Shown: piece by piece, positions 1-55,352 of the stretch | Numbering within the stretch: the stretch's first letter is position 1 | How the letters are laid out: each line of letters begins with the position of its first letter | DNA from: Candidatus Kapaibacterium sp. | GTDB taxonomy: Bacteria; Bacteroidota; Ignavibacteria; Kapaibacteriales; UBA4661 | Direction: 5' to 3' | Assembly (NCBI GenBank): GCA_025455065.1 | Contig: JALONG010000003.1 | Location: 186,001-250,000, forward strand | Length of the DNA stretch: 64,000 bases | The notes under the pieces: generated by a model | Told to the model about the DNA's origin: nothing | What the model saw: only the letters and a program-made list of their open reading frames with translations | Databases searched by the model: none | Position numbers and translations under genes: made by a program

Positions 1-1440
1 GGAGTATTGTATCGAAAAACCAAAGGGATAGGAGGTTTCGTTGCGATATTCAAATTTCACATAGAGCCAATCTAAAACGCTTTGCGGTGTGTAGGTCACC
101 AAACCGCGTCCGCCTCGATTTGCAGGACTCACGCTATTTGCAGTTGCCAAATATGTTGGTCCGAACTGTCTATCACCCGACCGAATCATCGCCGTTTCAA
201 CGACTTCACTATAATTTACTCCAACATCAACTCTGAAGATATTATCCGGCGGATTCTCCGATCCCTCAACTTCCAACCACCACGTATAGAACAGGGAAGC
301 CTGATAAACACTGCGCAAAATAGGAGTAATTGTGGGAACATCAACACCACTACTTGGATCTCTCCTTGTAACGAATTGCGGGTTTTCACTCGTGCGCGGA
401 TGATTGCCGTTTAATTGCAAACGCTCACTGCGACCAATATTGTTGGCGGGATCAAAGGTGAGTTGCGAAAATGTATTGACTTCACCAAGTTGATTGCCTT
501 CGTTAATTCTTTGAATAGGAATGTCGGCATTGATGCGTGCGCCAAAAACATTTGTTTTGTTGTCTTCACCAAGCGGCAAAGCACCTTCAAAACTAACGTT
601 AATCTTTGGGTCAGGTCCCATATTCAACCGACGACGCGCCAAAAAGTCCGTGAGTCGAGGATTAGGATTAGCAACATCGTCATTTATCCGATAAATAATA
701 CCACCACTTAATTTCAAAAGATTAGGAATCACGCGGCGGGTATTGTTGTCGTAATTATCAATAAGCGGACGCATTGCAGTAATTCTTGCTTCTCCGGCGT
801 ACCAGAAAGGATAGCCGAGAATGTCATTACCAAGCGAGTTTTGAATCCACCAGTTTGTCGAACCGACACGGAGCATTTGGTCAAAAGCAGAAAGCGAATA
901 ATACTGACGACCACCTGTCGGCATACGGAAGTTATTTTCGCCAATACCAACTTTTTTCTCAATGTCAGAAGTAACTTTACCGCCAACGTTGGAAACGGCA
1001 ACAAAGTCGTGACAATATTTTTCTTCACCTTCTGCTCCAACTGGCTCGGCGATAAGGTCTTTCACTCCGCCCAGCATCAATTCATCAATTTCTTTTTTAA
1101 CGGCAATGGCACTACCGCACTGTATACGGTAAATTTCATATTTTCCGTTTTTCTTCGGCTCTCCCCAAATGGAGATTTTTGCCAAATCCAGACCCGGTTC
1201 TTTACCGTTTGTCTTAAAAAACTGCTGAACAATTTTTTGTACCTGAGCTTCGCAGATTGTCCAACGACTAAGAAACGGCGTTGCTCGGTCGTCAATGAGT
1301 TGAAATGCTTTCGGAACACCGCCGGCAGCAGCAGAGGAATCCACAGGTTGCGGACTGGCAGGAGGAGTTTGTCCCCACAATGAGGACGCGCTCGCTACAA
1401 CAAGCACACAGGCGCTAAGAACCAGAGAATGTCGTTTCAT
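1..1440 (-). CDS. Outer-membrane-type secreted protein, 3' end outside window (partial)
   Basis: The frame reads from an ATG at 1440 through 480 codons to base 1 with no stop, so the C-terminus lies outside the window. The N-terminus is a clear signal peptide (Lys-Arg, then a hydrophobic core, ending near SSLWGQ). The middle carries the string GNDILGYPFWYAGEARITA. The downstream gene product of 1597..3345 has a matching GNDIGYPSLWSERVAINA, so the two are probably paralogues. The second half is rich in alternating polar and aromatic strands, as in outer-membrane barrels. No family is recognised. It is the last visible gene of a minus-strand series led by the GldM-like protein at 3441..5858. 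A role in envelope assembly or secretion is inferred only from this position. Confidence 0.85.
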   Translation of the reverse strand, partial: MKRHSLVLSACVLVVASASSLWGQTPPASPQPVDSSAAAGGVPKAFQLIDDRATPFLSRWTICEAQVQKIVQQFFKTNGKEPGLDLAKISIWGEPKKNGKYEIYRIQCGSAIAVKKEIDELMLGGVKDLIAEPVGAEGEEKYCHDFVAVSNVGGKVTSDIEKKVGIGENNFRMPTGGRQYYSLSAFDQMLRVGSTNWWIQNSLGNDILGYPFWYAGEARITAMRPLIDNYDNNTRRVIPNLLKLSGGIIYRINDDVANPNPRLTDFLARRRLNMGPDPKINVSFEGALPLGEDNKTNVFGARINADIPIQRINEGNQLGEVNTFSQLTFDPANNIGRSERLQLNGNHPRTSENPQFVTRRDPSSGVDVPTITPILRSVYQASLFYTWWLEVEGSENPPDNIFRVDVGVNYSEVVETAMIRSGDRQFGPTYLATANSVSPANRGGRGLVTYTPQSVLDWLYVKFEYRNETSYPFGFSIQYS

Positions 1441-26524: not shown

Positions 26525-27019
26525 ATGCAAACAGCTTTTGACAAAGGCACCGACAAACGTGAACAAGGCTCCGGCAATGAAGAAGTCTTGCAACTCGTGA
26601 GTTTCACGCTTGGCAAAGAAGAATTCGGTATTGATATTCTTCGTGTGCAGGAGATTAACCGAACTTCGTCCGTAACGCGCGTTCCGAATTCACCACACTT
26701 CATCGAAGGTGTAATCAACCTTCGGGGAAAGGTAATTCCGATTGTGGATTTACGGAAGCGCTTCGGTATGCCGCCGTCGCAACATGACAAAAATACGCGA
26801 ATTATTGTTGTGGAAATTCTCTCCAAAACTGTCGGTTTTATCGTAGATTCTGTACGCGAAGTGTTGCGTATTCCTCAAAGTGTTGTAGATCCACCACCGC
26901 CGATTGTAGCAGGAATTAGTTCGGATTATATCGAAGGTGTCGGAAAAATGGATGACCGTCTGCTTATTTTGCTGAACCTTGAAAAAGCACTATCATCTGC
27001 AGAACTACAAGCATTGTAA
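26525..27019 (+). CDS. cheW: Chemotaxis adaptor CheW
   Basis: The product has 164 residues. CheW couples receptors to the CheA kinase. The domain fills the protein: QLVSFTLGKEEFGIDILRVQEINR, VPNSPHFIEGVINLRGKVIPIVDLRKRFG (the conserved receptor- and kinase-contact segment), TVGFIVDSVREVLRI and ILLNLEKAL. It opens a plus-strand chemosensory series (HEAT, cheR, two cheY, cheZ-like, cheA, cheB) to 35567. Gaps of 80-320 bases between these genes leave room for internal promoters. Confidence 0.96.
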   Translation: MQTAFDKGTDKREQGSGNEEVLQLVSFTLGKEEFGIDILRVQEINRTSSVTRVPNSPHFIEGVINLRGKVIPIVDLRKRFGMPPSQHDKNTRIIVVEILSKTVGFIVDSVREVLRIPQSVVDPPPPIVAGISSDYIEGVGKMDDRLLILLNLEKALSSAELQAL

Positions 27020-27197: not shown

Positions 27198-28505
27198 ATG
27201 AGTGTACAAGACCGTATTTCCACCATGCTCACTGCCACCGATGCTGCCGTACGCCGCCGCGCAGCAGAGGAGTTTATGGGACTGAACAGTGCTTCCGGTG
27301 AGGTAATCACTGCCTTCGCAAAGGGACTGAGTGACGAGGACAAAGGCGTACGAGATATTTGCGCGCTTGCGCTAGTGCGTTTGGGTAATGACGCGACACA
27401 CGTCAATGCACGGTCTGTCGCCCAAGCAATCGCCCCCCTTATCACGCACGAGGACATTGAAGTCCGCAATCTTGCCGGAGATGTTCTCATTAAACTTGGC
27501 TCGGATGCCGTAGATGCGCTCTACCCCTACTTACAAGACAGCAAAGCAGACAATCGTAAATTTGCGTGCGACATTGTCGGACTGAGCAATAATCCTGCCG
27601 CTATTCCTCATGTTCGCGCCATTCTAACCGATGAAGACGACAATGTGCGTTGTGCTGCTGTCGAGGCACTTGGTTTTCTGAAGGCGAGCGACCTTTTGGG
27701 TGATATTATTGCGATGTACGATGACGAAGCAGTACGACCGTATGTCGTCGCCGCTATTGGCAATATTGGCGGCAAACAAGCACAGGAGTTCTTGCTCAAC
27801 ATCATGGACGAAACCGATGAGTTCGTTCAGATTGCAGCAATAGACGCACTTGCCGTTTGTGCCGATGAAATCGGTATTGCCCACAAGCTCCTTGCACTTT
27901 TGCCGAAAGCTGGTGAAGATGTGCAGCCTGTACTGCTCCGAACAATGTACAGCATTGCTTTTCGCCTACAAGTTGCGGTGGAGTTGCCGAAAGATATGCG
28001 TCGTATTGCGCAGCAAGCACTCACCGATGATGACCCCGACACACGCATTGCTGGTCTGTTGGCGCTTGGTCAAAGCTATGAAGAAGAAGATATTCCTGCG
28101 CTGTTGCATGAAATTACGCAAAACAATCCTGAAACACAGCAGCACATTTTATCGGTAGTATTGAGTAATTCTGCTCCGGCTGTGGCGCGGGAATTTTTCG
28201 ACCGTGTGTTTGCTGCATTGTTGGATGCAAATTTACAAATATCGGAACTGCTCGGCTTTTTAACGGCGCTCGTACCGAATGTTTCAGGCGAAAACTCGGC
28301 GATTGCTCTTCAGGCTGTAACGCGGCAGTATCAAGCCGTTATCCAAGACCACCGCCGTGAAATTGTTGAATTTTTGCTTGCCGTTAGCCGCGATGAAGCA
28401 ATTCGACTACTTTCCGATGAGATTACATCGGGGCAACAGCATCGCATCGAAGACGCAACACAGTTTGCGGAATTTTATAATATTCGAGAGATTGTTTTGC
28501 CATAA
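27198..28505 (+). CDS. HEAT-repeat protein within the chemotaxis cluster
   Basis: The product has 435 residues. About ten HEAT/PBS-type helical hairpins cover most of the protein (e.g. GVRDICALALVRLGND, EVRNLAGDVLIKLGSDA, NVRCAAVEALGFLKASD, FVQIAAIDALAVCADE, DTRIAGLLALGQSYEEED). There is no signal peptide. HEAT solenoids are protein-protein scaffolds. The location between cheW and cheR suggests it organises or tunes the chemosensory array or its output. The partner is not readable from sequence. Confidence 0.88.
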   Translation: MSVQDRISTMLTATDAAVRRRAAEEFMGLNSASGEVITAFAKGLSDEDKGVRDICALALVRLGNDATHVNARSVAQAIAPLITHEDIEVRNLAGDVLIKLGSDAVDALYPYLQDSKADNRKFACDIVGLSNNPAAIPHVRAILTDEDDNVRCAAVEALGFLKASDLLGDIIAMYDDEAVRPYVVAAIGNIGGKQAQEFLLNIMDETDEFVQIAAIDALAVCADEIGIAHKLLALLPKAGEDVQPVLLRTMYSIAFRLQVAVELPKDMRRIAQQALTDDDPDTRIAGLLALGQSYEEEDIPALLHEITQNNPETQQHILSVVLSNSAPAVAREFFDRVFAALLDANLQISELLGFLTALVPNVSGENSAIALQAVTRQYQAVIQDHRREIVEFLLAVSRDEAIRLLSDEITSGQQHRIEDATQFAEFYNIREIVLP

Positions 28506-28598
28506 ACGACGTTTTTATGCTATCCTGAGCATGATGGAGTGTTGTCGAGCAACCACACGTGCTTTGCTTTCTTAATGCTTGTCCACGCATTGTACCAC

Positions 28599-29660
28599 AT
28601 GGCTTCTGATTTGTTTGATAAATTTCGCTTTGGTCAAGGTTCACAAGGAATGAATCACCGCCCAACGCCTTCGCAACCTGATTCCACAGAATCGGACAAG
28701 AGCGATGCGTCCGGCACGGTCAATAATGACAAAGCACCGTCATCCGGCAGCAGCCTGTACGATAAAAGCCAACTCGGACAAATTTTTATCCCGCCTTCGT
28801 TGCTTTCGACAGACAACGCCAACGCGCCCAAAATGGATGAAGCGACGTTCAGAAAATTCCGTGATTTTATCTACGAACAATGCGGAATTTCCTTCACGGA
28901 AAACAAAAAGTATCTTCTCGAAGGACGCATTGCAAAGCGCTTAGAAGCCCATAATTTGGCGACATTCGACGATTATTTCCGCCTCATTTCTACTTCTGCT
29001 TCCGCCCGCGAGGAGCTTCCAAGCCTCTTTGAAGTCGTAACGATTAACGAAACATATTTTTTTCGTAATCCTCCGCAATTTGAGGCGCTTGAACAGGTGA
29101 TATTACCGGAAATTCTGGCTGCTAAACAAGCACAAGGCAATAAAAAACTTCGTATTTGGAGTGCTGCATCGTCCTCCGGTGAAGAGGCATATACAATGTC
29201 TATGTTGATATTGGAGCGCATCAAACCTCAATTCCCGGGCTTTACGTTTGAAATTGTCGGTAGTGATATTAACACTGCAGTTTTGGAAAAAGCGCGTTCC
29301 GGTGTGTTCAAAGAATACTCTGTGCGCAATATGCCTGCACACTATTTGAACAAGTATTTTACCCGTGACGGCGATAAATATATTCTCACACCCGAAGTGC
29401 GCAGTCAGGTAAAATTTATGTGCGTTAACCTTTATGACACCCCGACAATGCGTACCATGACCGGTTTTGATGTGATTTTCTGCTGCAACGTGCTGATTTA
29501 TTTCGACACGATTGCAAAGCAGCAGGTGGTGGCAGATTTGTATGACGCACTGAACAAAAACGGATACTTGTTTATCGGCTATTCGGAGTCGCTGCATGGC
29601 GTTTCGAAAGCCTTCAAGTTGGTACATTTTCCCAAAACGATTGCATATAAGAAAGAATAA
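28599..29660 (+). CDS. cheR: Chemoreceptor methyltransferase CheR
   Basis: The product has 353 residues from ATG 28599. Upstream in-frame GTG and ATG codons (28539, 28575) lack ribosome sites too, so the start is uncertain. The first ~75 residues are an Asp/Ser-rich linker, then the CheR N-terminal helical domain (FRKFRDFIYEQCGISFTENKKYLLEGRIAKRL), then the SAM-binding domain (LRIWSAASSSGEEAYTMSMLI, GSDINTAVLEKARSGVFKEYSV, GFDVIFCCNVLIYFD, GYLFIGYSESL). It methylates receptor glutamates and is opposed by CheB at the end of the cluster. No receptor gene is present in the window. Confidence 0.95.
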   Translation: MASDLFDKFRFGQGSQGMNHRPTPSQPDSTESDKSDASGTVNNDKAPSSGSSLYDKSQLGQIFIPPSLLSTDNANAPKMDEATFRKFRDFIYEQCGISFTENKKYLLEGRIAKRLEAHNLATFDDYFRLISTSASAREELPSLFEVVTINETYFFRNPPQFEALEQVILPEILAAKQAQGNKKLRIWSAASSSGEEAYTMSMLILERIKPQFPGFTFEIVGSDINTAVLEKARSGVFKEYSVRNMPAHYLNKYFTRDGDKYILTPEVRSQVKFMCVNLYDTPTMRTMTGFDVIFCCNVLIYFDTIAKQQVVADLYDALNKNGYLFIGYSESLHGVSKAFKLVHFPKTIAYKKE

Positions 29661-29811
29661 GAACGCCGCGCATACCCCTTCGGTTCAAACAAGAAGTGTA
29701 CGCGCACGTTCTCTGAGTTGAATACGCATATTGGACAGGTATTATGGTTAAACGTTGTCATCAATCCACGTTTTTTTGTTACTTCCAACACAGCCTCTTG
29801 GAAGGCACACT

Positions 29812-30174
29812 ATGAAAAAAACTATTCTCACCGTAGATGACTCAATGTCGGTGCGAAAATTTATCGCGCTCTCTTTGAAATCCGGCGGCTACCGCGTCAT
29901 TTCTGCGGTGGACGGCATGGATGCGCTCGAAATTTTACCGAAAGAGAAAGTGGATTTAGTAATTACCGACCTCAATATGCCTAACGTGGACGGGTTTGAA
30001 CTTGTACGCACAATTCGTGATAATACGATGTATAAAGACTTACCAATTATTATTTTATCTTCGCTTGCCGATGCAAAGTATATTGAGCGTGGTATGAACG
30101 CCGGAGCAAACTCGTATATCGTCAAACCGTTCAACATGAAAAAGATTCAATACGAAGTATCAAAATACATTTGA
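29812..30174 (+). CDS. cheY: CheY-like response regulator (first copy)
   Basis: The product is a 120-residue stand-alone receiver. ATG 29812 has GGAAGG nine bases upstream. Phospho-acceptor Asp53 lies in LVITDLNMPNVDG, the acidic pair in TVDDS, the switch Ser in IIILSSLAD and the conserved Lys in SYIVKPF. It has no output domain, so it works by diffusing to a target. A second receiver follows 105 bases downstream, and one of the two may act as phosphate sink. Confidence 0.95.
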   Translation: MKKTILTVDDSMSVRKFIALSLKSGGYRVISAVDGMDALEILPKEKVDLVITDLNMPNVDGFELVRTIRDNTMYKDLPIIILSSLADAKYIERGMNAGANSYIVKPFNMKKIQYEVSKYI

Positions 30175-30279: not shown

Positions 30280-30648
30280 ATGAAATTTCTCGTAGTTGAT
30301 GACTCGCCAACAATGCGCCGCATTGTAATCAACGCGCTTCACAGTTTCGGCTACAACGATGTCGTTGAGGCGAGCGACGGTCAAGACGCGCTTGCGATTC
30401 TCTATACCGAAAAAATTGATTTTGTGATTACTGACTGGAATATGCCTAACATGAACGGTCTGGAACTCACCAAAGCAATCCGTAACGACGCGACGTTTGG
30501 CAGTCTGCCCGTGCTTATGGTAACGACACGCGGCATTAAAGAAGACATTGTACAGGCGCTCCAAGCCAAAGTGAATAACTACATTGTAAAACCATTCACT
30601 CCGGCTGTTTTGAAAGAAAAAATTCAAGCTATTGTACCGAGCGCGTAA
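30280..30648 (+). CDS. cheY: CheY-like response regulator (second copy)
   Basis: The product is a 122-residue receiver of the classical CheY type: VVDDSPTMRRIVINAL, Asp52 in FVITDWNMPNMNGLEL, switch Thr in LMVTTRGIKEDI and Lys in NNYIVKPFTPAVLKEKI. The TDWNMP motif is closest to flagellar-type CheY. It differs clearly from the first copy, so it is not a recent duplicate. It is the likelier partner of the CheZ-like protein that follows. Confidence 0.96.
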   Translation: MKFLVVDDSPTMRRIVINALHSFGYNDVVEASDGQDALAILYTEKIDFVITDWNMPNMNGLELTKAIRNDATFGSLPVLMVTTRGIKEDIVQALQAKVNNYIVKPFTPAVLKEKIQAIVPSA

Positions 30649-30964: not shown

Positions 30965-32086
30965 ATGCGTGTAGGTGAAATCAATGAAATGCTGCATAAA
31001 ACCGAAGAGCTAAAAGCACTCTTCGTGTTCGGTCAGCGCGTTATTCCGTTTTTGGAAGAAGTGTTCCTCTTTATTCGAGAGGTTACGCCATTGCTGGAAA
31101 ACATCAATATTTCCATCGAAGAAAATCTCTCCAAAATGCCGAAAGCCGCACAACAACTATCTTCGGTAACAAAAGCAACGGAACTTGCTACAACGGAAAT
31201 TCTGGATACGTTGGACGGACTGAGCTACAAAGCTGATGTTATCAGTTCTAATTTGAAGCAACTTATCCAAATTCAGCGCCAAAATCGCTCTGAACATGAG
31301 CGCATTATCGAAGCAGTAAACGAGCTGCAAAAAAATGATGCAACACCGACGGAAGAAAAAGATTCGGTATATTCGCGTATCATTGATGTCATTCGGAAAA
31401 TAGAACAACGCGACGGCGGTCATTCATCCGCACACTACGTGGACAATATTAAATCGGCAGTCGCTGTTTTGCAAAAACCCGAAGTCTCCGAAGAACTTGT
31501 CAATAACTCGGAAAAACTCTTGGAAAGCATTCGCATGGATTCGACACAAATAATGATGTCGCTCCAAGTCCAAGACATTACCTCTCAGCAACTTGCAGCC
31601 GTAAACAGTTTATTGCAAACTGTTCAAAATAAATTGGGCGAAATCATGGTGCATTTCCGCAACACGGAAATAGGTGAACTTATCTCCACTTCCGCTCGTC
31701 GCCCGGCTCAAGAAGAAAGTCATGCCACCCAAGTTTCGTCGCTGCACCGTGCCATTGCTTACGATTCCGATGTTGGCTCCGCGCTTTCCGGCGACCCGAA
31801 TCGCCAAGGCTCGGTAGATTCTATCTTTGCTTCGTTCAACGAAGGTGGAATTGATGTGACAATGGCTAAACCTGAGGCACCAAAACAAATTATTGAGCCG
31901 TCGTCGCAGAACGATATTGATGCGATGTTCGGTGGAACAAAACCGTCTGCCCCAACCCCATCACCGACATCGTCGGGCGGCTCTGCCTCACAAGACGATA
32001 TTGATGCTCTTTTTGGCGGCGGAGGAGGGGGAAACGGCGGGAGTGATACGGCTTCTCAGGATGATATTGATGCTCTTTTTAAGTAA
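30965..32086 (+). CDS. CheZ-like CheY-P phosphatase with three C-terminal CheY-binding-type motifs
   Basis: The product has 373 residues. The helical core resembles CheZ: a helix near KMPKAAQQLSSVTKATELATTEIL and the active-site segment MMSLQVQDITSQQL. There Asp204 and Gln208 fit the Asp/Gln pair of CheZ (QDLTGQ in enterobacteria), which orients water for dephosphorylation of CheY-P. After a linker the tail carries SQNDIDAMF (314-322), SQDDIDALF (342-350) and SQDDIDALF (364-372), separated by Gly/Ser/Pro spacers. This motif is like the CheZ C-terminal CheY-binding helix and the FliM N-terminal CheY-binding peptide. Three copies are unusual. It lies between cheY and cheA. Confidence 0.88.
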   Translation: MRVGEINEMLHKTEELKALFVFGQRVIPFLEEVFLFIREVTPLLENINISIEENLSKMPKAAQQLSSVTKATELATTEILDTLDGLSYKADVISSNLKQLIQIQRQNRSEHERIIEAVNELQKNDATPTEEKDSVYSRIIDVIRKIEQRDGGHSSAHYVDNIKSAVAVLQKPEVSEELVNNSEKLLESIRMDSTQIMMSLQVQDITSQQLAAVNSLLQTVQNKLGEIMVHFRNTEIGELISTSARRPAQEESHATQVSSLHRAIAYDSDVGSALSGDPNRQGSVDSIFASFNEGGIDVTMAKPEAPKQIIEPSSQNDIDAMFGGTKPSAPTPSPTSSGGSASQDDIDALFGGGGGGNGGSDTASQDDIDALFK

Positions 32087-32166: not shown

Positions 32167-34200
32167 ATGGCAGGCGTTCTTGATAACGAAATGAAAGAAC
32201 TTCTTGACAGTTTTCTTATTGAAACGCAAGAAATTCTTGATACTCTCGACCAAGATTTGATGCAATTAGAGTCGCAAGCCGAAAACTTCGACCTGCTCAA
32301 CTCGGTCTTTCGTAGTTTCCATACCATTAAGGGAACCTCATCATTCATGGGGTTTGACCAGATTACGGAAATCACGCACCATGCGGAAGATATTTTGAAT
32401 AAACTCCGCAAATCAGAATTGAAAGTCAATTCCGAGATTGTTGATGCGCTTTTGGAAGTGTACGATTGGCTTAAAACCTTGCTCAAGAAGGCTCAAGCAG
32501 GAGATACCGAGGCGGTGGATTATTCCAAAACAATGGAAAAACTCACCAAGATCATTCATCCCGACGCTGCACCCAAAGCCGCAAGCATAGCAACACCAAC
32601 CGCAGCAGCACCAACCGTATCCGGCGGACCGTCGGTTGTTGATAGTATTTTGGGTGATAAATCCTTTGGTACAACGGGTGATTATTTCACGGATGACGAA
32701 CTTTCGATGATTGCTAAAGCGTTTGATGAAATCAACCGCACTATGCAAATAGGCACTGCCGATGCTCCAGCTGCCCCCGAAGCACAAGCACCTGCCGCTG
32801 CCGCTCGACCAATATCTCCACCGCCCCTAACACCACAACCTGTGGCGGCAAGTCCTGCTCCTCAGCGTCAGCCCGAACCCGTATCGCAACCTAAAGCGAC
32901 GGAGCCAATGGCACCCGCGAAAAAGCCTCCCACAAAAGAGGGAACAGCCTCTGCTCCCGACGATAAAAAAGCAGCTGTAGCAGCCACAGAAACAACTATT
33001 CGAGTTGATGTAAACCGTCTGGAAACGCTCATGGATTTGTCGGGCGAGTTGGTGCTTGGGCGTAACCGCTTGGCACAGGTTACACAAGAACTGATGCAGC
33101 GCTATGAGAACCACGACTTTTTACGAGAATTGCAAGAAACAAGTTCTGCGATTGATTTTATTACGACCGAGTTACAATCTGCAATTATGAAAACGCGGAT
33201 GGTGCCGATTTCCAAAATCTTCCAGAAAGCACCACGTATCGTCCGCGATTTGTCGAAAGAATTTGGCAAAGACATTGAACTTGTTTTGCGCGGTGAAGAA
33301 ACAGAACTTGACAGGGGTATTATCGAAGAGTTAAACGACCCGCTTGTACATATGATTCGCAATTCCTGCGACCACGGCATTGAGCGTCCGGGGGAACGTG
33401 AAAAAACAGGCAAAATCAGCAAAGGAACGCTGATTCTTGACGCTCAACATGAAGGCAATCACATTGTCGTCAATATTATTGATGACGGAAAAGGCATTGA
33501 CCCCGAAATGTTGAAGCGCAAAGCGCTCGAAAAAGGCTTAATTACGATGGAGCAGGTTCAAACCATGAGCGACAGAGACGCTTTCAGTCTCATTTTTATG
33601 CCTGGCTTCAGCACCGCCGAAAAAGTTACCAGCGTTTCAGGACGCGGCGTAGGCATGGACGTTGTACGGACAAATATCCAAAAACTCAAGGGCATTATTG
33701 AAGTTGATTCCAAAATCGGCTCCGGCACGACCTTTACCATTAAGTTGCCACTGACACTCGCAATTATTCAAGGCTTGCTTGTTCGCGTTCAGTCAGAAAT
33801 TTATGCTCTGCCGCTCAGTGCCGTTGTAGAGGTTGTAAACACTGACTTAAACCAGATTTACAGCGTCAATCAAAACGAAGTCATTCGCATCCGTAATCAA
33901 GTATTCCCCCTTATTCGGATGGACAAAGTTCTCAAAACACCTTCTAACGAAGACACGTTAGAAAACCGCTACGTCGTAGTCGTCGGTCTTGCTGATAAAC
34001 GCTTGGGTTTAGTAGTGGATGAACTTTTAGGTCAAAAAGAAATCGTGATTAAATCGCTGGGCGAGTATCTTGGTCATATTCGCGGTATGTCGGGCTCAAC
34101 GATTTTGGGCGATGGGCGAGTAATTATGATTTTGGATATTGAAGAACTTATACAAGCGGCGCATACGATCACCGCCTCTGTTTGGCAGCAGCAAGGATAA
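32167..34200 (+). CDS. cheA: Chemotaxis histidine kinase CheA
   Basis: The product has 677 residues. An Hpt (P1) domain at ~8-110 has the phospho-acceptor His52 in FRSFHTIKGTSSFMG. Residues ~135-275 are an Ala/Pro-rich linker containing one short helix (DDELSMIAKAFDEINRTM). No P2 CheY-docking domain is apparent. P3 dimerisation follows (VNRLETLMDLSGELVLGRNRL), then the ATPase with N box (DPLVHMIRNSCDHGIERP), G1 (DDGKGIDPEML) and G2 (SGRGVGMDVVRTNI), and a C-terminal CheW-like P5 (~545-670). It autophosphorylates and passes phosphate to the CheY proteins and CheB encoded beside it. Confidence 0.97.
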   Translation: MAGVLDNEMKELLDSFLIETQEILDTLDQDLMQLESQAENFDLLNSVFRSFHTIKGTSSFMGFDQITEITHHAEDILNKLRKSELKVNSEIVDALLEVYDWLKTLLKKAQAGDTEAVDYSKTMEKLTKIIHPDAAPKAASIATPTAAAPTVSGGPSVVDSILGDKSFGTTGDYFTDDELSMIAKAFDEINRTMQIGTADAPAAPEAQAPAAAARPISPPPLTPQPVAASPAPQRQPEPVSQPKATEPMAPAKKPPTKEGTASAPDDKKAAVAATETTIRVDVNRLETLMDLSGELVLGRNRLAQVTQELMQRYENHDFLRELQETSSAIDFITTELQSAIMKTRMVPISKIFQKAPRIVRDLSKEFGKDIELVLRGEETELDRGIIEELNDPLVHMIRNSCDHGIERPGEREKTGKISKGTLILDAQHEGNHIVVNIIDDGKGIDPEMLKRKALEKGLITMEQVQTMSDRDAFSLIFMPGFSTAEKVTSVSGRGVGMDVVRTNIQKLKGIIEVDSKIGSGTTFTIKLPLTLAIIQGLLVRVQSEIYALPLSAVVEVVNTDLNQIYSVNQNEVIRIRNQVFPLIRMDKVLKTPSNEDTLENRYVVVVGLADKRLGLVVDELLGQKEIVIKSLGEYLGHIRGMSGSTILGDGRVIMILDIEELIQAAHTITASVWQQQG

Positions 34201-34322: not shown

Positions 34323-35567
34323 ATGAAACCAATTCGGGTGTTAATTGTTGATGATTCGGCATTTGTTCGCAAAGCGCTTTCAACCATGCTCCAAAGCGAG
34401 CCGGATATTGAAATTGTTGGTCTTGCAAACAATGGCAAAGAAGCAGTAGAAAAAACGGCAGAACTCAAACCGGACATTATCACGCTGGACGTAGAAATGC
34501 CCATAATGAACGGCTTGGAAGCGCTTCGGATTATCATGGAGCAAAATCCTACGCCCGTTCTCATGGTCAGCAGTATCACGACCGAAGGCGCAGAAGCTAC
34601 TATTGAAGCCCTTTCGCTGGGAGCTGTGGACTTTATCTCTAAGCAATCCACACTCACCATTCAGCAAACCATGCGCGATGAACTTGTCGGCAAAGTTAAA
34701 GCCATTACACAGAGTGCCGGAGTGAAAACACGTCTTTCGCGTCCCTCGCTTTTAGGCGGTCTCGGTTTCCGTAAATCTTCCACGCCCGCAGCAAAAGCCG
34801 ATGACCCTAATGAGCGTCTGTCCTTGCAAGAACGCATCGCACGCCGTCGGCAACAATCTATGCAAGAAGGTGGCTCTCCCGCATCGGAGTCTGCTTCTGC
34901 ACCCGTAAGTTCATCAGCCTCTCCACAAAAACAACTCCACGAAGTGCGCGTAACGGGAAGAAAACGTCCTACGGCAGGACACGCAAAAATTGTCGTCTTA
35001 GGTGTTTCAACGGGCGGTCCGTTGGCATTGCATCAAGTTGTGCCGCGTCTGCCGAAAGATTTTCCGGTCGGTATGCTTATTGTTCAGCATATGCCGGCAC
35101 ACTTCACCAAATCCCTTGCAGACCGCTTAAATACTCTCTCGCACGTCACTGTCCGCGAGGCGCAGGAAGGCGATATTTTAGAGCCGGGCTTGGTACTCAT
35201 TGCTCCGGGCGGCTTCCATTTGAAAATTGCTAAAGACCAGCGTACTATCCATGTTACGCCCGAACCCTCAGAAACGCTGCATCGTCCTTCGGTTGATGTT
35301 ACGGCGGAATCCGTTGTGGAGGCGTTTGGCGGTCATGCCGTCGGCGTGATTATGACCGGAATGGGGCGCGACGGATGCGCAGGGTTAAAAAAACTCAACG
35401 CCAAAGGCGGTTACGTTATCGCTCAAGATGAGGAATCATGCGTGGTCTACGGTATGCCCAAAGCCGTCGTTGATGAAGGTATAGCCGATGAAGTGCAATC
35501 TCTCGAAAACCTTGCCGAGGCTATTGCCGCTTGCACAGGCGTTCATGCGGTAAACGCAAAAGTGTAG
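34323..35567 (+). CDS. cheB: Chemotaxis methylesterase/glutamine deamidase CheB
   Basis: The product has 414 residues. The N-terminal receiver has Asp56 in IITLDVEMPIMNG. An unusually long Ser/Ala/Gln-rich linker (~150-215) leads to the esterase domain. The catalytic triad motifs are present: Ser in VLGVSTGGPLALH, His in VQHMPAHFTKSLADRL and Asp in TGMGRDGCAGLK. CheB removes methyl groups added by CheR. It ends the chemosensory cluster and is followed by a strong terminator. Confidence 0.97.
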   Translation: MKPIRVLIVDDSAFVRKALSTMLQSEPDIEIVGLANNGKEAVEKTAELKPDIITLDVEMPIMNGLEALRIIMEQNPTPVLMVSSITTEGAEATIEALSLGAVDFISKQSTLTIQQTMRDELVGKVKAITQSAGVKTRLSRPSLLGGLGFRKSSTPAAKADDPNERLSLQERIARRRQQSMQEGGSPASESASAPVSSSASPQKQLHEVRVTGRKRPTAGHAKIVVLGVSTGGPLALHQVVPRLPKDFPVGMLIVQHMPAHFTKSLADRLNTLSHVTVREAQEGDILEPGLVLIAPGGFHLKIAKDQRTIHVTPEPSETLHRPSVDVTAESVVEAFGGHAVGVIMTGMGRDGCAGLKKLNAKGGYVIAQDEESCVVYGMPKAVVDEGIADEVQSLENLAEAIAACTGVHAVNAKV

Positions 35568-39608: not shown

Positions 39609-41057
39609 TTACCGCCCTCGCCGCGAAGTATTCGCCGCAGCCGCGCCAAGAAGTGCGTCGTAGCCGCCAAATTGCGGATTACGGTAGTAAAACAGCGCAT
39701 AAAATGTGTGGTTTGCCGAGAGCGAGTTTCCTTCACATTCTTCAAAATCATACGCCTCAACAGTGCCTGTTTGCTTGCTTAAAGTGCCTGAAGCGTACAA
39801 GTAATTATGCCGTCCGCGACGAATCCACTGCGCAAGCGTGTATTGGTGTAACGTGCTGTCATAGCGCATTTTCCAATCGGGCAGTGCTTGCCAATTATTA
39901 AACGAACCCATCACGAAAATTTCCCGCGACGAAGGCGCTCCTTCACTTGCTAACACAAATTCCATCAGCACATACTCATCGCGGCTTGCTTGCACACCTG
40001 CACTCGAAAATGCACCGTCATCGGCTCTCATAAACATTACGCCGTTCCGCCGCAAATCTGCCAAAGCAAAGCGCAACGGGGCTGTGGAAGCAGGGAAGCG
40101 CAAGGCATCTCGAATATCCAAAACGCGATATTCATTTTCCGCCGGAACAGCCGTTATGCGAAAGCGTTTTTGTCCGCCGGAAAAACCCAACACCGTGATT
40201 TTCGATGAGCGCCCGTACATCTGCTCCACACGGCTTTGGTCGGGCTTTTGCGTTATTACAAAAGGCTCGTTCCACCGCCACGCACGGTAAAGCGTAACGG
40301 TGTGAAAATTTTCATCAAAAAACTGCGGAGGCGCACTAATGGCTGCTTCCACAAGGTTTGCCGCAGGGCTTGTGCCACCGATTCGAGGGCTATATCCGTC
40401 GGGCAACAGCACCAGCGACGTTGCTGTTTCTTGGTCCACGACGAAAAACCGTGCTTCCCCAATAGGCGTGGCCATATCTTCGGCATCAAATATTTTCGCT
40501 TTCCAATTCCCCGAAAACCTTAGCTGCACTTCGCTGCTCGGCACGGTAAAACGGGCGCGATGCGTGAAATACCGCGAAAACGTGTTTGCTTGAAACACTT
40601 GAATTTGTGTGATGCGAAGCGACGGGTCGTTGATAACGAAATTTTTATCCTCCACCCAAAACGCATCACAATGGGTGAGCGTGGCGATAAACGCCGGCTG
40701 CACCGCACATTGCACATCCACTTCTACCGTTACGAAACTGCTTCCAATCACGCCCGAAGCGTCGTTTGCTGCCGCGTTTTGTCCATTTTGGTCTTGCGGC
40801 GTACCAAAGACGTTTTGCGGTGCGCGGGTGATTATCGGCGGCGCAGCCTCACTGTTTCCACCAAAAACCCGCACATTCAGCACCTGCGGTTTAGAACTCA
40901 CGCCACCGCCGGAACGTGCTGCAGCAATCAATGCCGCACACGAAGAATAAAGCGGTGCGCAAAGAATAATGCAAAGCAAGAAAAAACCCGCACTGCCCGA
41001 AAAACGAGCAATGGTGCGGGTTTGAAAAGGATACCATTTATCAGAAAAACTACCCAT
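39609..41057 (-). CDS. DUF5103 protein, type IX secretion system plug homologue
   Basis: The product has 482 residues. A hydrophobic N-terminus ends at PLYSSC, so it is probably a lipoprotein (non-ideal lipobox, Cys40). The N-terminal domain matches DUF5103/T9SS plug: ATLTHCDAFWVEDKN, then FSRYFTHRARFTVPSSEVQLRFSGNWKAKIFDAED and GEARFFVVD. The later part (FNNWQALPDWKMRYDSTLHQYTLAQWIRRGRHNYLYA) resembles the DUF5103 C-terminal and CBM48-like beta sandwich. In Flavobacterium the Plug protein closes the periplasmic side of the SprA translocon. It lies 28 bases downstream of proC on the same strand. Confidence 0.88.
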   Translation of the reverse strand: MGSFSDKWYPFQTRTIARFSGSAGFFLLCIILCAPLYSSCAALIAAARSGGGVSSKPQVLNVRVFGGNSEAAPPIITRAPQNVFGTPQDQNGQNAAANDASGVIGSSFVTVEVDVQCAVQPAFIATLTHCDAFWVEDKNFVINDPSLRITQIQVFQANTFSRYFTHRARFTVPSSEVQLRFSGNWKAKIFDAEDMATPIGEARFFVVDQETATSLVLLPDGYSPRIGGTSPAANLVEAAISAPPQFFDENFHTVTLYRAWRWNEPFVITQKPDQSRVEQMYGRSSKITVLGFSGGQKRFRITAVPAENEYRVLDIRDALRFPASTAPLRFALADLRRNGVMFMRADDGAFSSAGVQASRDEYVLMEFVLASEGAPSSREIFVMGSFNNWQALPDWKMRYDSTLHQYTLAQWIRRGRHNYLYASGTLSKQTGTVEAYDFEECEGNSLSANHTFYALFYYRNPQFGGYDALLGAAAANTSRRGR

Positions 41058-50612: not shown

Positions 50613-53600
50613 TTACCGCACAGCATTTTCAATAACGATATTTACTGTCCGACAGTAAAAACGCCCTTCCGGTGTGGTGTTATCGTGCAAAAGCCCGTCG
50701 CTGCCGCGTCCATCAACCGTTGCATCAAGGCGACCAAGCATTGTTGCGGTTGCGGAGGCACGTTGCTTAGAAAGATTTTTGTTGATGGTGGAATTACCCG
50801 TGCGGTCGGTGAAACCCGTAATGCTGATGCGGGATTCAGGGCGAACCTGCTTCCGCACAATATCCAAAATCCCCGTATTTTGTTCTGTAACTTCGGCTTT
50901 GTTAAAGTCGAACAACAACAAACCAAAGGTGTTTACTTCTTTGTCGGCAAGTTTTGCAGCGCGTTTTTTTGCAATCGAAACAATTTCCAGTGGCAATGTG
51001 CCTGAAGCAGCCGTATTTGCGCCACTTTCGTCGTTCACCGTGAGTGTGTACTGCACAGGAACGGTAAGTTTGGGCGCAGTCGTGATTTCACGCTCAGTGT
51101 TCCATTCTATGCGGTCTTGAGGCTTGCCTGTGCCGCTCAAACTTTTCATCGTTTGCACTTGACGTTTCGATTTTGTGCCGATACTTTGCGAAACATTCAC
51201 ATTCCACGTTGTAAGCGGCACTTGCGAGAGGGCATTTGTCCGAAAGCGCACTACAGGCGGCACAACCGTCCGCAAGGTATCTTGCGTCGTAACAACGTTG
51301 ATAATTTCGGGCGTGGAAGGCACCAGCTCCACACGCCGATTTTCCGCAATTCCGTCGGGTGTTTGCTCATTCGAGAATTTTTCCGGCAGCGCCCTGTATT
51401 GCACCATTAAGCGGTCATCAGCAATGCCCCAAACGGTGTGTAAGTATTCCTTCACCGCGAGCGCCCGTGCTTCGGAAAGCCGCATATCGTCAGGCGCGGT
51501 GAGGCGTTGGAGAAGTGTTTGCTGTTGTGGTTGTGCTTCAATGCTTGCTTGTGTTGTAGCTGTGGCGCTTGTAGCAGTGCGGCTTTTGGGCTGTGCAGAT
51601 GTTGGTGTAGCTGCGATTGAACTTACCGCAAGTTTTTCTTTGGTTGTTTTACAACCGAGAATCGTTAGCTTTGATGCGGGATTCAGCGCCATTCTGCTTC
51701 CGATGATATTCAGCACATTGCGATAGACTTCCAATGTAGATTCTGCCGAAAGAATTTTTTCGTAGGGCTGCTTTGTTTCTTGAATACGGCGTACTTGCTC
51801 AGGCGAAAGGCGATTGTAGCGACGAGGAAGAGTAAATGAGCCGTTGTCGAAAAACACATAATTCAAAAGCGGGTGCATCGTTGTTGCAAGAAATTCTTCT
51901 ACGCGCAGTGTTTGAATCGGGTATTCGGTGCTGTCTTTTCGAGCGGGATTCGCATTGGGGCGCAGTCCGTAGGCTTGGATGTATGCGGAAATCGTCGAGC
52001 CGCCTGTGCCGTACAGTTGGATTGTTGCGGGGCTACCGAGACCTCTGTATCCTATAACTAATTGGCTTGATGTACGACCTGCACTCGTCGGCTTATACCG
52101 CAAGCGAAGCGACATCGTTCCTTGCGGATAAATAATTGTTGTCGTGTCCAATTTCAAATTGCCCAGCAAGCTAAAATCTGTCGTATTTGGTCCCTTGAAT
52201 GAAATTCCCGTGAGTATAAGCGGTTGGTAGCTAATGTTTTTCAACACTACCAGAAACGTATCGCGCTGCTGCTTAATTTTTACTTCTTCAAAATCAATGA
52301 TTTTATGCGGCAGAACCACAAGCGGCGAAGCGCCTGCTCCGGTAACATTCACAAACTGCACATCGGACTGAGACACAATACGAAGTTTCGCCGGACGGTC
52401 GCCCGTGCAGCAAGGTTTGAAGCGTACTTCAAGGTTTCGTGTGCCTTTCGGCGGAATAATGCACGGCGCACCGCCTGAAACGATACTGTAATCGGAAGCA
52501 TTATCGCCGAAAAAGGACATATCGTCAATGCGAAGCGGGGAATTATCGTTGTTGCGAATAAATGCGGTCACAATCGAATCTTTGATTTCGCCGCGCAGTT
52601 GCCGCCCCATGTCAATATCGCGCACGGTAAAGCGGGGTTGCGAAATCGAAAACGGTGCGGCGGACGTAACTTCCTGAACAGCGCTTGTGTCCGGCTCCCA
52701 CATAAGCGGACGGGATTGGAAACTGCTTCCCGCCGATACAGATGCGGTTGTGTTCATGCGCCAGAAAAAGACTTTTTTGTCCGTACCGACGGTGGCTGCA
52801 TATTGACTGTTGCGGGAAAAAGCAATATCGTAGATTTCTCCGGCATGACCGATTTGCGTGTTTTTGGTGGTGTTTTTCAAATTTTTCAGCCATTCTTCCG
52901 TGTTGTAGCCCGCTCCGCCCAGTGTTTGCACGGTTCTTCCTGTTTCAACGTCCCAAATTCTCGCCGTGTGGTCAGCGCTGACGCTGGCAAGCGCGGAGCC
53001 GTCAGGCGTAAAAGCGATTTTGCGAATGATGCCCAGATGACCGCGTAAATTCTGAATCCAACCGCCGTTGCGCCCGTTCCAAATTTTCACTGTACTGTCC
53101 GCACTGCACGTAACGATGCGGTTTCCGTCAGGGGAAAATACTCCTGCGAAGACGATATTTTTATGCCCTGAAAGCCGCTCCAATACTGTTCCTTTGCGCG
53201 TATCCCAAACGCGGGCTGTGCCGTCGGCGCTGGTGGTGAGGAGTTTCGTGCCGTCAGGGGAAAATGCAACGCTCAGAATGGCTTCTTGATGACCTTCCAA
53301 TCTGTAAAGCAAATCGCCCGTTTTTGTGTCCCATAGCATTGCCAAACTGTCCGCGCCGCCTGTGGCAATGAGCGTTCCGTCGGGGGAAAATGCCGCGTCG
53401 AATACTGCGCCGTTATGTTTGAAAGTGCGAATCGTTTCTGCACTTTCGGTGTACCAAAGTTTTGCCGTGCTGTCCCAACTTGCCGTCAGGACGCGGCTTG
53501 CGCCTGTTCGCTCCGGCGCAAATTGCAGCGCCGTTATCATGTCCGCATGGTCATAAAAGACATCCAGCAAATCGCCGGATTGCGCTTCCCAGATCCGTAC

Positions 53601-55352
53601 TGTTCCTTCATTGAAGCCTGCAATGACGAATTTTCCGTTGGGCGAAACGATAATTTTTCCGGGCAACGCTGCATTTTTGCGCTGTCCGAATTGATTGCTA
53701 AAAAAGATTTGCCCCATCGTCCCTTTTTCGACATCCCAAGCACGTGCAACACCGCCCGAACCCAGTGTTACTGCGGTTTTGTTGTCCGGCAAAAAGGCTA
53801 CGCTGCTCATATTGTCCTTGAAGTTCGATAAATTCGGCGTTTGCAGTTGGCGCAATTTCACGAGCGCTTGATTGGTCGGCGTGGAAGGCACTCGCCAATC
53901 CGTCCGCAAGCCGCTTGTCGCCGGAACAACTGTCTGCCACGTTGCACCGCGATTGCTGCTAAATTCGATACTGACGGCTTCTGAGGGCATTATGCCTTTC
54001 CAAAAAATCGTCGTATCGCTTCCCGCGACATAACTTTCGCCGCCGTTTGGCTCAATCAAGCCTAACATGGGCTGTTGCGGTTTTTTACCCGGAAAACCCG
54101 CGCTGGCATAGATTGTACGCCCTCCGCAGACGTTATCACTCACCAAAAATTTTGCAAACGCATATCCCGAATCCGTCGGCACATACTTCACGCTGAGAAC
54201 TTTGCGCTGTCCGGGCTTGAGTTGGAAATATGTCGGCGAAATGCTAAAGCGCTCATCGGAACTTTCGATATTGCTCACGGTAAAAGCGCTGTTACGGGCG
54301 CGAATGACCAATTTCAGTTCACGCGAGGAGCGAGGAACAACGCCGCCGAAGGTGATGTTTTCGTTAGAAAATTCCAGCGCTTTGACGGATTTTGCGGGAA
54401 TGTCGTAGGAGAAATTTTGCGAAAGCATCCGCGCCGGCAGGGAAAAGGTTGTATTCATGCGGCTTACGTTGCAGGATTGTTCGCTCATCCATGCAATTTC
54501 GCACGGACGGTTACCCAGTGCTAATTGCAACAACACGCGATAAATCTGCTCTGCTTGCTGTACGCTCGTAACATTTTCAAAGTATTCGCCGCCTGTTTTT
54601 CGGGCGATATTGCGGAGATTTTCGGGTGCAGGCATCCCCAACGTGATGCAGTAAATCGTTACGCCTTCACTTTTTGCGACTTCGATAATCTGCTCTTCAT
54701 TGCCGCCGCCTTGTCCGTCGGTAAGGAAAATCACAATGCGGCGGCTATTTTTGGCATTTTGCATCACAAAGAGGCTTCCGCCTTGGGGTTTGAGCAAGCC
54801 CACATCATAGTCCGTGCCGCCTTGCGGTTTAAGGTTATTGACCGCCTTCAAAAGCCGTTTGCGGTCTTGTGTAAAGTCTTGGTTGAGGTAATTGTCTTGG
54901 TCGTAGCTGGTGATAGCACATTCGACGTTTTCCTCCGGCATAGCTTGAATCCAAGCGCGGGCGGCTGTTTGTGCAAGAGTAAGGTTTGATGAGCCTCCTG
55001 TGCCTTCACTCATAGAGCCGGAAACATCTATCGTCAAAATAACCGACAGCGATTTTGCGATACTTTGCGGCGGACACGTTGCGCTTGTAACAACGCGCGG
55101 AATGCCATTTTCCCGAATGGCAAAATCTCGTGTAGAAAGGTCAGGAAGCGGCTTTCCGTCTGCATCCATCGCAAAAAATTTCGCACGAATAAGCGGAAAC
55201 GACGACGCATTCACATCGTATATGGTAAGTGATTGCGCCATGATTGTGGGCGAAGCGATGCAGAGCAGCAACATAATGCTCCAAAGGCTCATCCCAAGCC
55301 GCTTGTAGCGACTTTCACGAATAGTATTCCAAGTGCTAACGGAAGATTTCAT
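50613..55352 (-). CDS. Giant envelope protein: VWA, WD40 propeller, Hydin-like Ig domains, two OmpA-like domains
   Basis: The product has 1579 residues with a signal peptide (~20-40). A von Willebrand A domain (~100-280) has metal-site residues D109-x-S-x-S113 and FLTDGQGG. Ig-like sandwiches follow (~300-480), then a WD40 propeller (~500-890; repeats such as AFSPDGTLIATGGADSLAML and VWDTRKG, ARIWDVETG). ASPM-SPD2-Hydin-type sandwiches come next (~925-1150). A first OmpA-like domain (~1195-1375; VFFDNGSFTLP, SEARALAVKEYL, NRRVEL) is followed by a C-terminal OmpA domain (~1470-1575; FDFNKAEVTEQN, GFTDRTGN, LSKQRA). OmpA domains grip peptidoglycan. The WD40/OmpA mix recalls T9SS PorE, though PorE lacks VWA. 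Role inferred as an envelope scaffold. Confidence 0.93.
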   Translation of the reverse strand: MKSSVSTWNTIRESRYKRLGMSLWSIMLLLCIASPTIMAQSLTIYDVNASSFPLIRAKFFAMDADGKPLPDLSTRDFAIRENGIPRVVTSATCPPQSIAKSLSVILTIDVSGSMSEGTGGSSNLTLAQTAARAWIQAMPEENVECAITSYDQDNYLNQDFTQDRKRLLKAVNNLKPQGGTDYDVGLLKPQGGSLFVMQNAKNSRRIVIFLTDGQGGGNEEQIIEVAKSEGVTIYCITLGMPAPENLRNIARKTGGEYFENVTSVQQAEQIYRVLLQLALGNRPCEIAWMSEQSCNVSRMNTTFSLPARMLSQNFSYDIPAKSVKALEFSNENITFGGVVPRSSRELKLVIRARNSAFTVSNIESSDERFSISPTYFQLKPGQRKVLSVKYVPTDSGYAFAKFLVSDNVCGGRTIYASAGFPGKKPQQPMLGLIEPNGGESYVAGSDTTIFWKGIMPSEAVSIEFSSNRGATWQTVVPATSGLRTDWRVPSTPTNQALVKLRQLQTPNLSNFKDNMSSVAFLPDNKTAVTLGSGGVARAWDVEKGTMGQIFFSNQFGQRKNAALPGKIIVSPNGKFVIAGFNEGTVRIWEAQSGDLLDVFYDHADMITALQFAPERTGASRVLTASWDSTAKLWYTESAETIRTFKHNGAVFDAAFSPDGTLIATGGADSLAMLWDTKTGDLLYRLEGHQEAILSVAFSPDGTKLLTTSADGTARVWDTRKGTVLERLSGHKNIVFAGVFSPDGNRIVTCSADSTVKIWNGRNGGWIQNLRGHLGIIRKIAFTPDGSALASVSADHTARIWDVETGRTVQTLGGAGYNTEEWLKNLKNTTKNTQIGHAGEIYDIAFSRNSQYAATVGTDKKVFFWRMNTTASVSAGSSFQSRPLMWEPDTSAVQEVTSAAPFSISQPRFTVRDIDMGRQLRGEIKDSIVTAFIRNNDNSPLRIDDMSFFGDNASDYSIVSGGAPCIIPPKGTRNLEVRFKPCCTGDRPAKLRIVSQSDVQFVNVTGAGASPLVVLPHKIIDFEEVKIKQQRDTFLVVLKNISYQPLILTGISFKGPNTTDFSLLGNLKLDTTTIIYPQGTMSLRLRYKPTSAGRTSSQLVIGYRGLGSPATIQLYGTGGSTISAYIQAYGLRPNANPARKDSTEYPIQTLRVEEFLATTMHPLLNYVFFDNGSFTLPRRYNRLSPEQVRRIQETKQPYEKILSAESTLEVYRNVLNIIGSRMALNPASKLTILGCKTTKEKLAVSSIAATPTSAQPKSRTATSATATTQASIEAQPQQQTLLQRLTAPDDMRLSEARALAVKEYLHTVWGIADDRLMVQYRALPEKFSNEQTPDGIAENRRVELVPSTPEIINVVTTQDTLRTVVPPVVRFRTNALSQVPLTTWNVNVSQSIGTKSKRQVQTMKSLSGTGKPQDRIEWNTEREITTAPKLTVPVQYTLTVNDESGANTAASGTLPLEIVSIAKKRAAKLADKEVNTFGLLLFDFNKAEVTEQNTGILDIVRKQVRPESRISITGFTDRTGNSTINKNLSKQRASATATMLGRLDATVDGRGSDGLLHDNTTPEGRFYCRTVNIVIENAVR

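Follow-up and report, generated by a model that had tools for sequence, protein, structure and literature searches.

The window, that is, the whole stretch of 64,000 nucleotides that was analysed, carries a che cluster on the forward strand in which a CheZ-family gene lies between genes for a CheY and a CheA and encodes a protein with docking-type motifs repeated in its tail. The features discussed below are:

26525..27019 (+), CheW, by domain match
27198..28505 (+), HEAT-repeat protein, by domain match; beside cheR in the che cluster in many relatives too
28539..29660 (+), CheR, by domain match
29800..30174 (+), CheY1, also a single-domain receiver, whose docking face diverges (Pfam Response_reg; face residues)
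30280..30648 (+), CheY2, a CheY of the E. coli/H. pylori type with a conserved docking face (NCBIfam CheY; PDB CheY matches)
30965..32086 (+), CheZ-family gene, 373 aa (translation; Pfam CheZ, 32.0 bits, cut-off 30.7)
within 30965..32086 (+), core, a long-helix hairpin (aa 1-245), and flexible tail (aa 246-373), from an AlphaFold2 model
31574..31588 (+), putative catalytic D204-I-T-S-Q208 (DxxxQ); D143/Q147 in the alignment with E. coli CheZ
31802..31828 (+), fourth, degenerate site of docking type, RQGSVDSIF (Q281, D285); predicted helix 278-292
31904..31930 (+), docking-type copy 1, SQNDIDAMF, aa 314-322; predicted helix 316-322; pN/pS 0.18
31988..32014 (+), docking-type copy 2, SQDDIDALF, aa 342-350; predicted helix 344-351; pN/pS 0.07
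32054..32080 (+), docking-type copy 3, C-terminal, SQDDIDALF, aa 364-372; predicted helix 365-372; pN/pS 0.07
32167..34200 (+), CheA, by domain match
34323..35567 (+), CheB, by domain match

Translation of 30965-32086 on the forward strand bore out the three motifs SQNDIDAMF, SQDDIDALF and SQDDIDALF and the QDITSQ signature that a sequence-only reading of this DNA had reported. Its proposal of a CheZ-like phosphatase is upheld as well: the protein passes the Pfam CheZ cut-off (PF04344; E 1.5e-7, 32.0 bits against 30.7, a margin of 1.3 bits), 56/56 members of alignment A3 (55 of the 83 complete relatives plus the window protein) match the family at E <= 0.01 (best 1.1e-12), and the E. coli D143/Q147 pair and C-terminal motif can be aligned with it. 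The homologue with seven motif copies (L107) scores 24.8 bits, under the same cut-off, and the NCBIfam CheZ equivalog cut-off was missed by the window protein (14.8 of 257 bits). The FliMN_C (SpoA) domain was not among its Pfam matches. Phmmer against the PDB returned no match, a profile search of the PDB gave a weak match to 1kmi_Z (E 0.063), and hhalign against E. coli CheZ gave a probability of 8% with E 0.004. In the genome from which the window comes, a search with the Pfam CheZ family found zero matches at E <= 0.001.

QDITSQ occupies aa 203-208, with the codon of D204 at 31574-31576 and that of Q208 at 31586-31588. Q203, D204 and Q208 are invariant both in A3 and in alignment A1, which comprises 45 of the available sequences, L034 and L050 (opposite ends of a gene split by contig breaks) being left out. 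When E. coli K-12 CheZ was aligned with five family members, 13 columns were invariant in all six sequences, including Q142, D143, T145 and Q147 of E. coli, and hence the D143/Q147 catalytic pair common to E. coli CheZ (PDB 1kmi chain Z) and the window protein, as well as S201, Q202, D206 and L208 of the E. coli C-terminal docking segment. DxxxQ and a C-terminal CheY-binding region are given as CheZ features in the available part of one report (PMC7750401). The idea that the protein is not a CheZ at all was rejected on the Pfam match, the conserved DxxxQ and the docking residues, even though sequence searches, pairwise or against the PDB, gave nothing or weak matches; judged from sequence, the window protein belongs to the CheZ family, with D204/Q208 as its putative catalytic pair. 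A viral or plasmid origin of the gene was discarded as tblastn gave zero relatives in viral contigs or plasmids.

In CheZ, the core is one half of a four-helix-bundle dimer. The AlphaFold2 monomer model of the window protein (mean pLDDT 73.9, pTM 0.45) contains long helices at 3-125 and 173-233 followed by a tail of mostly low pLDDT; the two helices form a predicted long hairpin, and E. coli CheZ 1kmi is a long helical hairpin too. Aligned with 1kmi_Z by VIA-align, the model gave Z 11.1 and rmsd 8.9 over 172 aligned residues, a score in the range that unrelated long-helix proteins also reach; among the best 50 Foldseek matches listed, 1kmi was absent and the fold matches were long-helix look-alikes that do not discriminate. 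The two proteins differ in size (214 aa in E. coli, 373 aa here; identity 25%), the disordered tail of the window protein being much longer, and in the number of docking motifs, with one in E. coli CheZ against three and a degenerate one in the window protein.

The C-terminal S-Q-x-x-[IV]-D-x-L, a predicted CheY-docking helix, is common to both: the E. coli segment ASQDQVDDLL aligns with ASQDDIDALF of the window protein. E. coli CheZ ends ASQDQVDDLLDSLGF; in the window protein, copy 3 is followed only by K373 and the stop. MAFFT pairs the E. coli motif with copy 2, although copy 3 is the nearest to it in position. The degenerate site RQGSVDSIF keeps the Q-x-x-[VI]-D spacing of the full copies; in A3 its Q281 is invariant and D285 is conserved in at least 90%, and in some relatives (L103, L106, L110, L113) the site reads KQDEIDRLF or similar. 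In the AlphaFold2 model, short helices coincide with all four sites while the tail around them is mostly of low confidence. With the core motif defined as [DENQS][IV]D-x-[LMIF][FLM], the 140-aa tail holds four occurrences, the three copies and SVDSIF; among 200,000 shuffles of the tail, 198,654 contained none, 1,341 contained one, 5 contained two and none contained three or more.

Homologues were found by tblastn in 49/149 genomes of the class, and 42 of these also carry FliM/FliN. The statement in the sequence-only reading that CheZ-type phosphatases are not typical of the FCB group is therefore wrong for this class; it is also countered by the CheABWRYZ set listed for Ca. Thermonerobacter MS-B_bin-24 in the accessible portion of PMC6338057, by which CheZ was known in the group before. 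Scanning of named genomes yielded 80 loci under the titles Candidatus Kapaibacterium, Ignavibacteria, Melioribacter, Kryptoniota, Rhodothermales and others; L087-L094, the eight nearest, match at 66-83%. CheZ proteins of Ignavibacteria, Melioribacter and Kryptoniota have the same core, a C-terminal SQxEIDKLF and, where scanned (L116-L123), the same cluster; they differ from the window protein in having a short tail with mostly one copy, and none in a few divergent paralogues. In some distant relatives (L036, L048, L051, L128, L137, L145, L165), two CheZ-like genes lie near each other, neither with a docking motif.

Motif copies were counted in 84 proteins, i.e. the window protein and the 83 complete relatives, L130 being dropped as it is cut at a contig end (two copies visible). 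Full motifs numbered 0 in 13 proteins, 1 in 54, 2 in 8, 3 in 8 and 7 in 1 (L107), and core motifs 0 in 9, 1 in 43, 2 in 13, 3 in 7, 4 in 9, 5 in 2 and 7 in 1; the full-motif expression overlooks PDDIDAMF (L104) and similar variants, and both expressions overlook SQDDINALF (L124). A quick core-region tree shows two or more core copies (two to seven) in 30/36 rows of the Kapaibacterial group against 2/48 outside it, where nearly all relatives have zero or one copy, mostly a single C-terminal one. The copy-number state changes at least 8 times on the core tree, many forks of which are weakly supported. Since some members of the Kapaibacterial group have one copy, three copies are not essential to the family. 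Within the clade of the window the copies are conserved, so that the outcome named as a refutation in the sequence-only reading, their absence in all close homologues, did not occur. In nine sequences of this clade, pN/pS was 0.12 for the core; among the copies, whose boundaries are off by about 1 residue, copy 1 had 0.18 and copies 2 and 3 had 0.07, and the two intervening spacers reached 0.69 and 0.56. Copies 2 and 3 are under purifying selection and at least as constrained as the core, while the spacers drift.

L087-L089 and L091-L094 have the complete order CheW, HEAT-repeat protein, CheR, CheY1, CheY2, CheZ, CheA, CheB; L090 starts inside the che cluster at its contig end. In the synteny scan, which covered 40 of the 80 named loci, the CheY2-CheZ-CheA order was kept in 40/40, with gaps elsewhere in the cluster in some. 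CheY2, which scores 148 bits for NCBIfam CheY, below the cut-off of 189, retains D12, D13, D57, T87, I95, Y106, K109, F111 and K119, among them the positions of the docking face; in CheY1, residue 87 is S and residue 119 is E. The sequence-only reading suggested that the motifs could serve both CheY proteins; because CheY2 has an E. coli-like switch-binding face and CheY1 differs at several positions, CheY2 is the better candidate ligand, and to judge by these residues it is likely to be both ligand and substrate of the window CheZ. In pairs from the clade, CheY2 is 98-100% identical where CheA is 74-90%; at other loci, pairs whose CheA is 76-80% identical have CheY2 at 84-96%. This identity of 98-100% indicates strong constraint on CheY2 in a clade where no switch protein was found.

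Motifs of the same type occur in the switch proteins of related bacteria. FliM of flagellated kin has an N-terminal LSQxEIDxLL with small variations, and FliN of the same order an N-terminal [ST]QxxIDxL, both with the spacing of the window motifs. In these proteins the motif is N-terminal, in single copy and ends in LL or LI, whereas the motifs of the window CheZ end in LF. As FliM and FliN of the kin carry a motif of the same type, it appears to be a switch-type docking motif shared in the lineage. FliMN_C gave no match in the window's own genome (99.5% complete), and the lack of detectable FliM/FliN there alters the functions open to the motifs. The class sample divides into 42 genomes with CheZ as well as FliMN_C, 7 with CheZ alone, 8 with FliMN_C alone and 92 without either (Fisher p 1e-21, with no correction for kinship). 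The CheZ-only genomes are G000 and G148, which belong to the genus of the window, G033 and G089, whose CheZ tails are without docking motif, and G112, G129 and G144, with completeness of 93, 90 and 71%. In the named genomes, the FliM/FliN search covered 35 of the 80 loci; FliMN_C was present in 26/35 and absent in 8/8 of L087-L094 and also in L101. The idea that the array arose from loss of the flagellar switch was rejected, copy number not tracking FliM/FliN loss and arrays being found also where FliM/FliN are present. The array thus did not evolve as a FliM substitute; it could be usable as one at present.

The 5.6-Mb genome was searched with two DNA patterns, both of which are blind to other codon or residue choices. 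The stricter pattern hit 4 places, 3 in the CheZ tail and one at the C-terminus of a further ORF, presumably a rhomboid protease. The broad pattern hit 9 places, six of them outside the CheZ tail: the same presumed rhomboid C-terminus, a place inside a 447-aa ORF, ORFs of 69 and 95 aa, a 30-aa frame and an N-terminal TQGEMDVLF. No other convincing docking motif was found in the genome by these two patterns. The small ORF with TQGEMDVLF (about 936-1172 (+) of L169, contig C116) carries MEAMTQGEMDVLF near its start, like the N-terminal docking motif of FliN, and has zero Pfam matches; in a genome without detectable FliN, the MEAMTQGEMDVLF ORF could be a CheY partner or a chance occurrence.

In its textbook form, CheZ is a signal terminator with one CheY-docking helix. 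The explanation that we favour, and hold to be probable, is that the window protein is a multivalent CheY-P phosphatase whose docking arm serves a non-flagellar output in a clade without detectable FliM/FliN. D204/Q208 on the helical hairpin core would hydrolyse the aspartyl phosphate of CheY, the core acting as in E. coli, and the disordered Gly/Ser/Pro arm would present three full and one degenerate docking helix to the alpha4-beta5-alpha5 face of CheY2, in a docking mode modelled on the single C-terminal helix of E. coli CheZ. Several helices per chain, and double that number if the protein is dimeric, may raise the rate of capture and the effective local concentration of CheY-P, so that CheY2-P would be kept near the active site and quickly switched off. 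The module would then end or shape signals to an output that we infer to be non-flagellar because no FliM/FliN is detectable in the clade of the window.

The tail might instead be a CheY-P sink, scaffold or receiver, with CheY2-P binding assembling or relocating CheZ and the complex itself being the output in a flagellum-less clade. E. coli CheZ oligomerises in a CheY-P-dependent manner, and such a role would agree with the lack of a FliM/FliN match in the clade, with the two-pattern search of the genome, which brought up no further convincing docking motif, and with the hyper-conservation of CheY2 relative to CheA. The same arrays exist, however, in relatives with FliM/FliN and so did not arise to replace FliM, and we regard this possibility as rather doubtful. 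About as doubtful, or slightly more so, is a rewired CheY signalling in which the multivalent-tail CheZ, as the main receiver of CheY2-P, buffers it or assembles on it and directs a machine other than the flagellum, for example the type 9 secretion/gliding apparatus. That only the C-terminal copy works, the others being near-neutral expansions of a low-complexity tail, would fit the single C-terminal copy of most members outside the Kapaibacterial group, the variable copy number among relatives and the weaker constraint on copy 1; it is distinctly unlikely given that copies 2 and 3 are equally constrained while the spacers next to them drift, that the copies differ in synonymous codons and thus are not fresh duplicates, and that seven full copies are kept in L107.

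The motifs could also dock a partner other than CheY2, be it the P2 domain of CheA, the HEAT-repeat protein, CheY1 or a part of the type 9 secretion system (T9SS). Conservation of the HEAT-repeat protein in the cluster, a gene for a T9SS plug-domain protein about 4 kb downstream of cheB (39609-41057 (-) of the window; the plug is the protein's first domain) and the presence in the genome of SprA, the T9SS translocon protein, speak for this. Nevertheless, E. coli CheZ and the FliM/FliN of kin have matching docking motifs, and there the partner is CheY; a different partner seems improbable. The co-occurrence of CheZ and FliM/FliN in the class (42/7/8/92), set beside the lack of a FliM/FliN match in the clade, could suggest a che system in decay, left over from flagellar chemotaxis. 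This was already disfavoured and has very little probability left, as the che cluster of the clade is intact, purifying selection is strong, CheY2 is hyper-conserved, and 49 places encoding a receptor signalling domain are found in the genome of the window, where neither FliM/FliN nor PilT was found.

The search for the PilT family, without match in this genome, was positive in 13/14 controls. A GldL search in 18 of the 80 named loci and in G000 and G148 was silent, and was uninformative as its controls were silent too. The presence of SprA and of the plug-domain protein in the window makes a T9SS-linked output of the che module possible. In the parts of the sources available, the CheY-like PorX is described to bind the T9SS protein PorL in Porphyromonas (PMC5005315) and, in Flavobacterium, the direction of T9SS rotation is linked to GldJ (PMC12239597). 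No description of a CheZ with several docking motifs was found in the open-access literature, screened mostly at the level of titles and abstracts, and the motif strings returned only an unrelated match there. Across the natural proteins, motif number runs from one to seven on comparable cores, a series for relating docking valency to signal turnover. Moreover, the clade of the window has a large CheA-CheY-CheZ system without detectable flagellar switch, in which what else CheY-P can control is directly testable in Bacteroidota.

The genome encodes two CheA. A second che cluster (L190:159-8801 (-), contig C57) comprises CheA, a receptor, CheR, CheB, a CheD-receiver fusion and a further receiver protein. 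Within the window itself, a 1579-aa protein with many WD40 repeats is encoded at 50613-55352 (-).
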